A stretch of 64,000 nt of DNA from Candidatus Absconditabacterales bacterium (lineage in GTDB: Bacteria; Patescibacteriota; Gracilibacteria; Absconditabacterales; Absconditicoccaceae), in contig JANWWO010000009.1 in the NCBI GenBank assembly GCA_025057375.1, positions 1 through 64,000 of the forward strand, read 5' to 3'. Below the pieces are notes generated by a model. That model ran no database searches. It was not told the origin of the DNA and worked only from the letters and a program-made list of their open reading frames with translations. Every line of letters begins with the position of its first letter. Positions within the stretch are counted from its first letter, which is position 1. This document shows, one piece after another, positions 1,008 to 57,542 of the stretch. Position numbers and translations under genes: made by a program.

Positions 1008-1388
1008 ATGACATTGTTTCATATCATCTCGTTGATAAAAGCATGTGTCTGAGTAAGCATGATCTATGGGGTCTACTATTATATCAATCCTCGCCTTGAT
1101 CCCCTAGCAGCAATAGGGTTTGGAGCTACAGGAATATTTTTATTGTTACGATGACTATCATTTCGAATCAGCTATGGTCTTTTGTGGCTCATTTTGCCGC
1201 GTCGTGAGACTCTTTCTACATTGTGCTACAAAATTTCTTTTCTGATCTGAGGATTTTGATTAACCAATATGTTGTTATTTTTCTGAGAACGATGGGATCG
1301 ATTGAGTGGCCTGATTGTTCTTGGACTCTTTTGTGGTTTAGGATTTTTATTATTTTTTCGTTATGATGAGTGAGCAGAAACAGAATAA
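1008..1388 (+). CDS. Small integral membrane protein, unknown function
   Basis: A 126-residue protein with no recognised family. It contains about four hydrophobic segments: near residues 3-20, 27-55, 75-95 and 98-115. They are separated by short basic loops, one of them PRRET. It ends in an acidic tail (YDEGAETE). Six TGA-Gly codons lie mainly inside the hydrophobic segments, as expected for a real membrane protein in this code. The preceding in-frame stop is at about 981, and ATG 1008 is the first ATG after it. The 3' end overlaps the start of the next gene by 26 bp, so the two are probably co-translated. A role connected with Fe-S assembly is possible only by association. Confidence 0.72.
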
Positions 1389-1740
1389 TCCACCAATAAC
1401 CCAGGAACAAGTCATACATCGTAATGATACCGCACATCCTCTCTATGCTGTTGTCATTGATCAATTGATGACAGTCTATGATCCAGAAGTACCCCTCATT
1501 GATATCTACACACTCTGACTTATCTATGGGATCACCTTTGATGATGCAACAACCACTGTTAATATTATAATGACATTTACTACACCAGCCTGCCCTATGG
1601 GAGATCTCCTCAAATCAATGACCACGGATGCAGTTCACCGCTGATGTCCATGACGAACCTGCCTACTTGAAATCACGTTTGATCCTATGCGGTGACCAGC
1701 AATGATCAAAGATGAGGACCTCCAAAGAATGTTTGTATAA
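1363..1740 (+). CDS. MIP18/DUF59-family Fe-S cluster assembly factor (SufT/PaaD-like)
   Basis: Proteins of this family help to build or deliver iron-sulfur clusters. The 125-residue sequence has the family order: an N-terminal helix ending in YDPEVPLIDIYTLGLI (residues about 37-52), the FTTPACPMGD motif with its conserved Cys (about residue 77), and a C-terminal LEITFDPMRGPAMIKDEDL motif preceding the end. Four TGA-Gly codons occur, one in the YTLGLI stretch. Two tandem ATG codons (1363 and 1366) are possible starts. The gene overlaps the upstream membrane-protein gene. A cysteine desulfurase gene lies far away at about 48 kb in the same window, so the Suf-type genes are not clustered here. 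Confidence 0.88.
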
Positions 1741-1782
1741 CACCATCTCTCAGAAACAATCACAAAAAACCATGAAAATCAG

Positions 1783-1810
1783 TTGCTTTTTCTTTAAATA
1801 TCACTATATT
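1783..1810 (+). promoter_or_regulatory. Predicted promoter of the RRM-protein gene
   Basis: TTGCTT and TATATT are separated by 16 nt. This fits the TTGCAN/TANNNT pattern seen repeatedly in this window. The predicted transcript would start near 1817 and give a leader of about 100 nt to the ATG at 1920. Confidence 0.5.
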
Positions 1811-1919
1811 TCTTATATGACAGACCATCGTCATGAAACCTGCGTGTGATTGTCGCTGATTTTCACCCTCGTATCTGATTATGTCTTGTCGCTTTTTTAT
1901 CTTTTTTTATATACAACGC

Positions 1920-2246
1920 ATGATTGAAAAAAACAAACTCTTTGTTGGTAATCTTGATGGACGCATCAAATGGCGACACTTAAAAGAATTTTTCTCAAAA
2001 TTCGGAAAGGTGACCTATACAAAAGTCGCTATCAACAAAGCAACAGGAAAAAGTAGAGGATTTGGTTTTGTGGTTTTTGCAGAAGAAAGCGAAGCAGAAA
2101 ATGCTTTGAATAATGCAAGTGGAAAAATCCTTACTGCATCTGATAAAGATGGAAACGAAATTATCTTTGGTGACAAAGAAATTCGTTGTATGTATGCTCA
2201 AGCGCAAGAAGGAAGAAGCGATCACACGTCTCATGATGCTGCATAA
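1920..2246 (+). CDS. RRM-domain RNA-binding protein
   Basis: A 108-residue single RNA-recognition-motif protein of the cyanobacterial/CPR Rbp type, probably binding single-stranded RNA. Both ribonucleoprotein motifs are intact: RNP2 as LFVGNL (residues 7-12) and RNP1 as RGFGFVVF (about 50-57), with the aromatic residues that stack on bases. The tail after the RRM is short, polar and Ser/His-rich. The ATG at 1920 is chosen because it directly precedes the canonical start of the fold and follows a U-rich leader; an in-frame ATG at 1881 would add 13 hydrophobic residues. None of its roughly ten glycines is encoded by TGA, unlike most neighbours. It is transcribed alone between a promoter and a terminator. 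Confidence 0.9.
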   Translation: MIEKNKLFVGNLDGRIKWRHLKEFFSKFGKVTYTKVAINKATGKSRGFGFVVFAEESEAENALNNASGKILTASDKDGNEIIFGDKEIRCMYAQAQEGRSDHTSHDAA

Positions 2247-2274
2247 AAAAATATTTCTTCCCCAACTCATTGAG

Positions 2275-2301
2275 AGTCCTCACCACCATGAGGACTTTTT
2301 T
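2275..2301 (+). terminator. Rho-independent terminator after the RRM gene
   Basis: A perfect 8-bp stem (AGTCCTCA with TGAGGACT) around a 6-nt loop is followed by five T residues. Confidence 0.87.
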
Positions 2302-2379
2302 GATATCCAAAACTATTGCAATAAAGAAAAAAAATAATACAGTACCATATCCTAGTCTTTTATCCCACTACTGTTATCA

Positions 2380-3366
2380 ATGTTCGTATGAATACTCATA
2401 CTCCGACTTATGATTCATGGACTCAGTTATACTCACACATGGATTGGTGAAATAATTGTCAGTTTTCGCCCGCTTTTTTTAATTTGACATATCATAGTCT
2501 TTAGCGGATTATGTATCCGAACACGATGGTGTCTCAAAAAAAAACATCACCAGACCCCATTCTCTCCAGACACTATGATCATCGTCTGGCTCATTTTTCT
2601 GGTTCCCACCTGTGCAAATATATACTTTGTTCATACAGACTATGCCTGACAGTTTTGGGAAGATACTCGCACCAATCACCCATCAGGCATTCCTATCCTC
2701 TACGCCAATATTCTCAAAACAAACAGAAACTATGAAGAAATCAAGACACTCATCATGCAAACCAACCCAACAATCATTTTTTTTGCAGAACGACAAGCTC
2801 ACCATACCGCCAATGTTCCACTCCTTGATCAATATCCCTATACTGGTCGTTATCGTTCTGAAAATGTCATTTTTTCCAAAATTCCCTTTACCTCACTCCC
2901 CTCGTTGGTAGAACCATACAGTGGACGATTCTATCCTCGCATCACCATAACACTGGGTGAACAACGCTGGAGAATTGACTTTGTACACACAACATCACCA
3001 ACATCCCCTCGCAATTTCCGTCAAAGAAATCATCAACTTACTTTTCTTGTGTCAAACATACAGGAGGATCCTAATCCCTATCTTATCCTAGGTGATTTTA
3101 ATGTGACACCTCATTCATCATATTACAAACAGACACTTGGGGGAGCTTCTTGACTAACCAATGTATCAATGACAGACTATACACCACGAACACGAACATT
3201 TGGCAATAGCTCAGTTCTGCCTGCTGCTCACATTGATCATGTCTTTGTCAGCAATGCAGATGCCATTACCAATTTTCGTATCATCAATCTCAAATGATCT
3301 GATCATCATGCCTTCTTCTTCCATCTTACTCCCTCATCACCAATCACCTCATCATCTCGTCAGTAA
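2380..3366 (+). CDS. Membrane-anchored endonuclease/exonuclease/phosphatase (EEP) family protein
   Basis: EEP enzymes are Mg-dependent phosphodiesterases acting on nucleic acids, lipids or phospho-substrates. The 328-residue protein starts with about three hydrophobic segments (residues 1-12, 20-45 and 65-80). The catalytic fold follows, with LGDFN at about residue 238, HIDHVF at about 284 and SDHHAF at about 306, the conserved Asp/Asn/His catalytic set near the C-terminus. The N-terminal catalytic Glu probably lies in the FFAE segment at about 130. This arrangement, membrane helices before an EEP domain, is common for envelope-located members. Four TGA-Gly codons are present. The following isomerase gene starts 25 bp downstream. 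Confidence 0.9.
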
Positions 3367-56177: not shown

Positions 56178-56761
56178 ATGTTTACCTGAATCATTTCTCA
56201 TCAAAATACCGTTCTTTCCAGGATGTGATGACATATTGTCATGACCAAAACTGATACCGTACCTCTCACGATCGGTCAGAGTATTGCCTATGATGGTGCT
56301 TGTATGAGTTCACAGACATCACAGACACCACCTACTCCTTTTTTGCAATGGAAGAGTTACTCACCACAACCACGTTGGGACTCAAACACCCATAAGATAT
56401 GATCAATATCGAATACTCTCTCCGTATGGGTGATCGTATGGACGGACATCTCGTGACGTGACATATCGACTGTCGTGGCGAGATTCTCACGATACAAGAT
56501 GCCGTTGATGGATCACGTCAACGTCGTAGTGGCTATCCATCATCCTTTTCTCATCTCATCATCCCCAAAGGAAGTATTGCGCTCAATGGCGTCTCACTCA
56601 CGGTTGCCGATGATGACAGAATGACGCGTCAGTCATCTTTTTCCGTATGGTTGATTCCTCTGACACTGAAACTTACCAATCTCTCCCTCCTCCAACCAGG
56701 CGATTATGTAAACCTGGAATTTAATCTTTTTGCCAAATATGCTCACAAACGTCCATCCTAA
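56178..56761 (+). pseudogene. ribE: Riboflavin synthase (alpha chain) gene, interrupted
   Basis: Riboflavin synthase dismutates lumazine to riboflavin. The start MFTGIISH and the element LTIGQSIAYDGAC (first barrel) lie in one frame. The sequence then continues one frame back as FTDITDTTYSFFAMEELLTT, up to a TAA at about 56393. Beyond this TAA, in the same frame, come SLRMGDRMDGHLVTGHIDCRGEI and the second barrel with PKGSIALNGVSLTVAD and a GDYVNLE end. So the full-length gene is present, but carries one frameshift near 56306 and one in-frame TAA. It overlaps the ribF-like start by 23 bp, the usual sign of a working operon. Either recent loss or two base errors explain it. Confidence 0.8.
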
Positions 56762-57542
56762 TATCTTCTCCTGACCCGTCATCCATGGCAAAAAACATGG
56801 TCGTCAGATTGGTTTCCCGACAGCCAACGTTTTTTTGGAAACGAACAAAAAACCTCATCCAGGAACTTATGGTTGCATCTGCCTCCTGGGAACCTTTGCG
56901 AGTCTGCGAGACGATGATGTCATCATCATGGGAAAAAAGTGGGCGACTGCCAGGATTGAGGGCTTGGCATGTTTTCGTGAGGGAACCGATATCCTGGAAG
57001 TCCATCTCCTTGATCGATCAGGCGACCTCTATGAACACACGATCACCGTCAGTCTCCTCACCTACTTGAGACCAAATTATTCTTTCTCCTCTCGTGAGCA
57101 ACTCGCATCTCAGATTCACCATGATCTTCAAACCTGGGCCAATACACGCCTGATTGGGATGAATTTTGGGACATTTGACTATCTCCATCATGGTCATCTA
57201 CGATATTGTACCCAAGCAAGTCTGATGAGCAAACACCTGATCACCATCGTCAGTCATGATACCCATCGCAAACCTGATACACAAAAAAGCATGGCAAAAA
57301 GAATAAATGACCTCACAGCATGGAAACTACCTCAGCATACCATCCTCGGTGGACATCCTCATGATTATCTGTTTTATCCCCATCACTATCGTCCAGAGAT
57401 CTTTTTCCTTGGCTATGATCAACCCCAGGGTAAGGAACGCCTCAGTCAGTATCGCTATGACAGCAAGGTGTGCCATATTGATGCCTATGAGCCCCATCGT
57501 TTCAAATCCTCGCATCTCAAAAAAACCAGCATATCATCCTAG
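56739..57542 (+). CDS. Riboflavin kinase fused to a C-terminal RibL/TagD-like nucleotidyltransferase
   Basis: The 267-residue protein would make FMN and probably FAD. The N-terminal half is a riboflavin kinase domain: GKKHGRQIGFPTANVFLET (about 16-34), a GTYGCIC strand (about 39-45) and the end motif ILEVHLLDRSGDLYEHTI (about 84-101). The C-terminal half has the cytidylyltransferase-like motif NFGTFDYLHHGHL (about 141-153) and a second motif IFFLGYDQP (about 219-227), as in archaeal RibL or TagD-type enzymes. Usual bacterial RibF has the reverse domain order. Only one Gly is TGA-encoded, in FSGPVIHG. The start ATG 56739 overlaps the end of ribE. Confidence 0.88.

Follow-up and report, generated by a model that had tools for sequence, protein, structure and literature searches.

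A kinase-first fusion of riboflavin kinase and a RibL-like nucleotidyltransferase in Absconditabacterales: a probable FAD synthetase built independently of RibF

Known FAD Synthetases

The prokaryotic FAD synthetases described so far are all bifunctional and joined to a riboflavin kinase, with the exception of that of M. jannaschii (2022 paper, PMC9678776). In RibF/RibC (TIGR00083, PF06574 plus PF01687) the two activities share one chain, on which the nucleotidyltransferase precedes the kinase. RibL of M. jannaschii is instead described as a stand-alone FAD synthetase (Mashhadi et al. 2010, Biochemistry 49:8748, as cited in PMC9678776). The RibL type also extends outside Archaea, as an archaeal-type FADS of Entamoeba histolytica, eukaryotic and unfused, has 41% identity to M. 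jannaschii RibL and has been shown to possess FAD synthase activity (PMC11423594). A 2015 genome study also reported Parcubacteria to be devoid of ribKL/ribF yet to keep FAD enzymes such as MurB and TrxB (PMC4508563).

Here, we describe a gene found in a window of 64,000 nucleotides (the whole stretch of DNA analysed) from a Candidatus Absconditabacterales bacterium, whose product, P0001, very probably represents a bifunctional riboflavin kinase/FMN adenylyltransferase (FAD synthetase) assembled independently of RibF. Along this chain, an N-terminal flavokinase of the bacterial/eukaryotic type would convert riboflavin and ATP to FMN, and a C-terminal RibL-type HxGH nucleotidyltransferase would transfer AMP from ATP onto FMN, generating FAD and pyrophosphate. 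The initial annotation had proposed a bifunctional FMN/FAD enzyme, and this holds for the identity of the domains, while both catalytic activities are predicted from homology, co-occurrence and operon context.

The Fused Gene and Its Domains

The fused gene (56739..57542, plus strand) encodes 267 amino acids under genetic code 25, in which TGA is read as glycine. The frame is open under this reading only and includes a single in-frame TGA (56772..56774), corresponding to Gly12, a glycine that is invariant across all fused relatives; the source genome (1.13 Mb, 97% complete) reads TGA through in its genes. Translation probably begins at ATG 56739, with TTG 56730 as a possible alternative start.

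The first domain (residues 7-133; 56757..57137, plus strand) matches Flavokinase (PF01687) at 83.5 bits (E = 1.8e-23) against a curated cut-off of 19.6, which assigns P0001 to the riboflavin kinase family. T28, N30 and E87, which represent the PTAN motif and the catalytic glutamate, are invariant among the fused relatives. The second is a predicted RibL-like FMN adenylyltransferase domain (residues ~139-262; 57153..57524, plus strand), recognised by the archaeal RibL-like profile and by CTP_transf_like, whose Pfam match spans residues 143-207 and scores 24.2 bits, barely above the curated value of 21. Three motifs on the plus strand characterise this half: the nucleotide-binding HxGH (HHGH, residues 150-153; 57186..57197), which lies in invariant columns of alignments A1, A2 and A4; GYDQ (residues 225-228; 57411..57422), invariant in alignment A4 and replaced by GDDW in TagD rows; and KSS (residues 256-258; 57504..57512), which occupies the position of the ISSTxxR/HSS motif. 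The stretches IGFPTAN, GTFDYLHHGH and FLGYDQP that had drawn attention to the gene are all found in P0001, and the positions of the two domains confirm that the kinase comes first and the nucleotidyltransferase second, the opposite of RibF.

An AlphaFold2 model of P0001, obtained with 20 fused sequences, consists of two ordered domains (mean pLDDT 84.9, pTM 0.84), with a low-confidence loop at residues 58-69 that falls within an insertion peculiar to this protein. In Foldseek searches, the kinase half retrieves the riboflavin kinases 5a88 and 1nb0. The second half retrieves 3glv of Thermoplasma volcanium with the highest target TM among the matches listed (0.80), and phosphopantetheine adenylyltransferases are matched as well. 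The predicted structure is thus that of a riboflavin kinase followed by a RibL-like domain. In parallel, a PDB profile search with the family profile gives 132 bits over the full length to 3glv, 60 to TagD (1coz) and 53 to HldE. 3glv is therefore the closest solved structure to the second half; it differs in being stand-alone, and it is deposited as a 'lipopolysaccharide core biosynthesis protein', a name that makes no reference to FAD.

Identity of the Second Half

The nature of the second half was evaluated with three profiles of different depth, namely archaeal RibL-like (24 rows, including 3glv), TagD-like (7 rows) and RibF-N, which is thin at two sequences. The archaeal rows came from a pattern scan headed by a putative M. 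jannaschii RibL sequence, to which they are 40-60% identical; they are named RibL-like because this putative sequence led the alignment used to fetch them. It is absent from the archaeal profile and enters only alignment A3 and one row of a tree.

The second half of P0001 scores 54 bits with the archaeal RibL-like profile, 27 with TagD and 1.3 with RibF-N, the latter built from two sequences. The corresponding ranges are 85-114, 46-61 and 5-19 bits for the other fused proteins, and 71-148, 27-79 and 3-20 bits for the separate RibL-like genes of Gracilibacteria. As an internal control, the rows of each built-in group score highest with their own profile. Since the RibF-N profile is thin, a second leg of the argument is provided by Pfam, where P0001 has no match to FAD_syn at E<=10. 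In addition, the RibF model TIGR00083 reaches 84.2 bits through the kinase part only, against a cut-off of 184, and the TagD model TIGR01518 reaches 18.8 bits against a cut-off of 165, with KSS in place of ISTT. On its sequence, the second half is placed in the RibL family and not with a permuted RibF. The archaeal-type module and the assembly separate from RibF, both suggested by the initial annotation, are in line with these scores; of its double label "TagD/RibL-like", the RibL part stands and the TagD part is the weaker one.

These scores bear on two other origins of the second half. In the first, the N-terminal FAD_syn domain of RibF would have moved to the C-terminus, giving a circularly rearranged RibF with the same two activities. 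The NCBIfam RibF models do match the kinase half of P0001, and the trees described below tolerate a grouping with RibF-N; against this stand the missing FAD_syn match, the profile scores and the presence of the same nucleotidyltransferase as a stand-alone gene in most of the class. Such a rearrangement is strongly disfavoured and very improbable, a permuted RibF being ruled out on the profile scores and not on the trees alone. In the second, a cytidylyltransferase of the TagD/Pct kind, as in CDP-glycerol synthesis, would have been fused by chance to the kinase. Membership in the CTP_transf_like superfamily, the occurrence of TagD, HldE and Pct as the next-best matches after RibL-like, and the report that M. 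jannaschii RibL accepts CTP at 40% (PMC11423594) are compatible with this origin. Nevertheless, the TagD score is half of the RibL-like score, which rules out TagD identity as such, and GYDQ and KSS stand where the TagD type has GDDW and ISTT. The co-occurrence with riboflavin kinase, the ribE-ribH operon and the failure to find an alternative FAD synthetase also speak against a chance fusion with a cytidylyltransferase, which is quite unlikely.

Phylogenetic analysis is less discriminating. The trees are built on a domain of ~130 residues (142 columns), in which P0001 and RibF-N form long branches. A quickly built tree (101 rows) unites every fused row except P0001 in a single group with an SH-aLRT of 94, close to RibL-like rows from archaea, DPANN and CPR, while P0001, with a branch length of 1.79, is placed outside the fused clade. 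This free placement represents a failure of the search, because constraining the fused rows, P0001 included, to a single group raises the log-likelihood by 16.9. In a reduced tree, the RibL-like rows lie on one side of a branch with support 86, on few columns and with alternatives that survive the AU test. Indeed, AU tests on the 142 columns reject no topology (p 0.38-0.60), including the one that joins the fused second halves with the two RibF-N rows (p=0.60). The long branches of P0001 and RibF-N and the limited number of columns explain why the trees could not reject a permuted RibF. The tree of this short domain is too weak and neither proves nor refutes ancestry. The phylogeny of the second half thus leaves a grouping with RibF-N unrejected, and it is the profiles that separate the two.

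Comparison with Known Enzymes

P0001 resembles RibF/RibC in carrying the two predicted reactions on one chain and in its homologous kinase module; it differs in the reversed order, in a second module that is not FAD_syn and in a RibF score of 84 bits versus the cut-off of 184. It is thus predicted to work like RibF without being RibF. It shares with archaeal RibL a nucleotidyltransferase of ~130 residues with HxGH, GYDQ/GPDQ and the SS motif; however, RibL stands alone, whereas P0001 bears an ATP-type flavokinase on the same chain. The archaeal riboflavin kinase is of a CTP-dependent type and unrelated.

The two cysteines associated with the air sensitivity of M. jannaschii RibL are not conserved, since fused and separate members alike have P..YKSS in place of the Cys-containing end. 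They are not taken as defining, because the active Entamoeba enzyme also lacks them (PMC11423594). The closest enzymes with experimental support for the predicted FAD-forming step are RibL of M. jannaschii and its Entamoeba counterpart.

Conservation of the Fusion and Operon Context

When the fused alignment was used to search the class (353 genomes), 37 genomes proved to encode both halves at full length and in the same order, every one with in-frame TGA and all within three TGA-recoded families. Five belong to the family of the window's own genome (f1, this genome included), 31 to family f14 and one to f22; elsewhere in the class, kinase and RibL-like halves are mostly separate genes. Two separate genes united by an assembly or frame error had been raised as an alternative to a true fusion, and next to the gene ribE does change frame and contain a stop. 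Yet the same fusion recurs as one continuous frame in 37 genomes, which refutes a joining by error and leaves it next to no probability. In family f73, the separate RibL-like and kinase genes adjoin each other, with an 11-base overlap in G493. Viral contigs contain no fused relative, as their three matches concern the kinase half only.

Among the 30 fused loci examined, 26 have ribE and/or ribH directly upstream on the same strand, usually in the order ribE-ribH-fusion, which ties the protein to flavin synthesis; the other four all belong to genus g18. At one locus (L219, G131), a tandem pair of lumazine synthase matches lies between ribE and the fused gene.

The Gene in Its Own Genome

P0001 is the most divergent fused member, with a mean identity to the others of 0.34 in the kinase and 0.31 in the second half, compared with 0.50 and 0.48 among the remaining fused proteins. 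It keeps 13 of the 15 residues that are invariant in the other kinase halves and 19 of 23 in the second halves; the TVxxIKG stretch is missing from P0001, and ~18 residues are inserted in its kinase.

The gene for riboflavin synthase alpha (ribE; 56178..56761, plus strand), whose 3' end overlaps the fused gene, is broken by a frame change near 56300 followed by an in-frame TAA (56393-56395), a lesion that may be an assembly error. In the same 97% complete genome, ribH (lumazine synthase) and ribB (DHBP synthase) were not found, nor was another FAD synthetase by FAD_syn and RibL-like searches. Given the lesion in ribE and the failure to detect ribH or ribB, P0001 probably serves flavin salvage, working on scavenged riboflavin. 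The simplest account of this genome is that riboflavin synthesis has been lost and the FMN/FAD step retained for salvage.

Alternatively, the gene could be decaying together with the riboflavin operon, so that the kinase may work while the nucleotidyltransferase half is inactive. The broken ribE, the ribH and ribB not found, the long branch of 1.79 and the lost TVxxIKG stretch agree with decay. Against it, the full-length frame is open, the fold is predicted confidently, the conserved residues of the second half include HxGH, Arg188, GYDQ and Lys256, and the searches returned no further FAD synthetase in the genome; overall, decay appears unlikely. Three points weigh against the preferred reading of a bifunctional FAD synthetase, namely the divergence of P0001, the missing cysteines of archaeal RibL and the existence of genomes with one half and not the other.

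Distribution of Kinase, RibL-like Gene and FAD_syn

The last point can be set against the overall distribution of the two genes. With RibL-like presence defined as at least 80 bits (the next match being at 65), 99 relatives include 48 with the kinase, 50 with the RibL-like gene, 45 with both and 46 with neither (Fisher p=9e-19). Across the phylum, the kinase is present in 66 of 241 genomes and the RibL-like gene in 72, with 57 having both, nine the kinase only, 15 the RibL-like gene only and 160 neither (Fisher p=2e-31). The sampled genomes are related, and both p-values therefore overstate independence. The association persists outside the class, where 37 genomes have both, nine the kinase only, 14 the RibL-like gene only and 160 neither. 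A convincing full FAD_syn occurs in one of the 99 relatives (G046, L062) and in one of the 241 phylum genomes (G359, L237), while control genomes matched as expected. The first carrier is 67% complete, and its FAD_syn may be contamination.

Five genomes (G089, G048, G078, G001 and G050) have a RibL-like gene with no detectable riboflavin kinase; these perhaps take up FMN, or their assemblies lack the kinase gene.

Both domains are also found in other fusions. The RibL-like domain is joined to a TruB pseudouridine synthase at L254 (G523; 1288-2451, minus strand) and lies behind an S4/FtsJ-type RNA methyltransferase at L255 (G365; 1269-2408). In other bacteria, truB often adjoins ribF, and thus at L254 the RibL-like gene may have taken the place of ribF in the operon. 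The riboflavin kinase is fused behind an EamA transporter at L041 (G080) and apparently in the same way at L256 (G002; 379-1704), where the kinase match falls in the terminal part of an EamA-like ORF. EamA genes also occur near the kinase in family f73, and a transporter near or fused to the kinase is a possible flavin importer. Further kinase fusions involve 5-formyltetrahydrofolate cyclo-ligase (L033, G054, family f7) and a Wzy_C membrane protein (L043, G065, family f6).

Implications for FAD Synthesis in Patescibacteria

A description of RibL or of the reversed fusion in CPR was not found in the open-licence literature. As for transfer between archaea and CPR, the trees are too weak to favour either direction. 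Across Patescibacteria/CPR, it is likely that an archaeal-type RibL has replaced the RibF adenylyltransferase, usually as a separate gene beside a stand-alone kinase, and that in TGA-to-glycine lineages of Gracilibacteria the two have been fused kinase-first into a second, mirror-ordered bifunctional FAD synthetase independent of RibF. If true, this would represent a differently built bifunctional solution and a clear example of convergence, the same pair of steps having been fused independently. For those Parcubacteria that carry the gene, a RibL-like gene that tracks riboflavin kinase offers a direct and testable answer to their FAD gap. Collectively, the kinase-first fusion, common to many relatives, suggests how this large bacterial group makes FAD without the usual enzyme.
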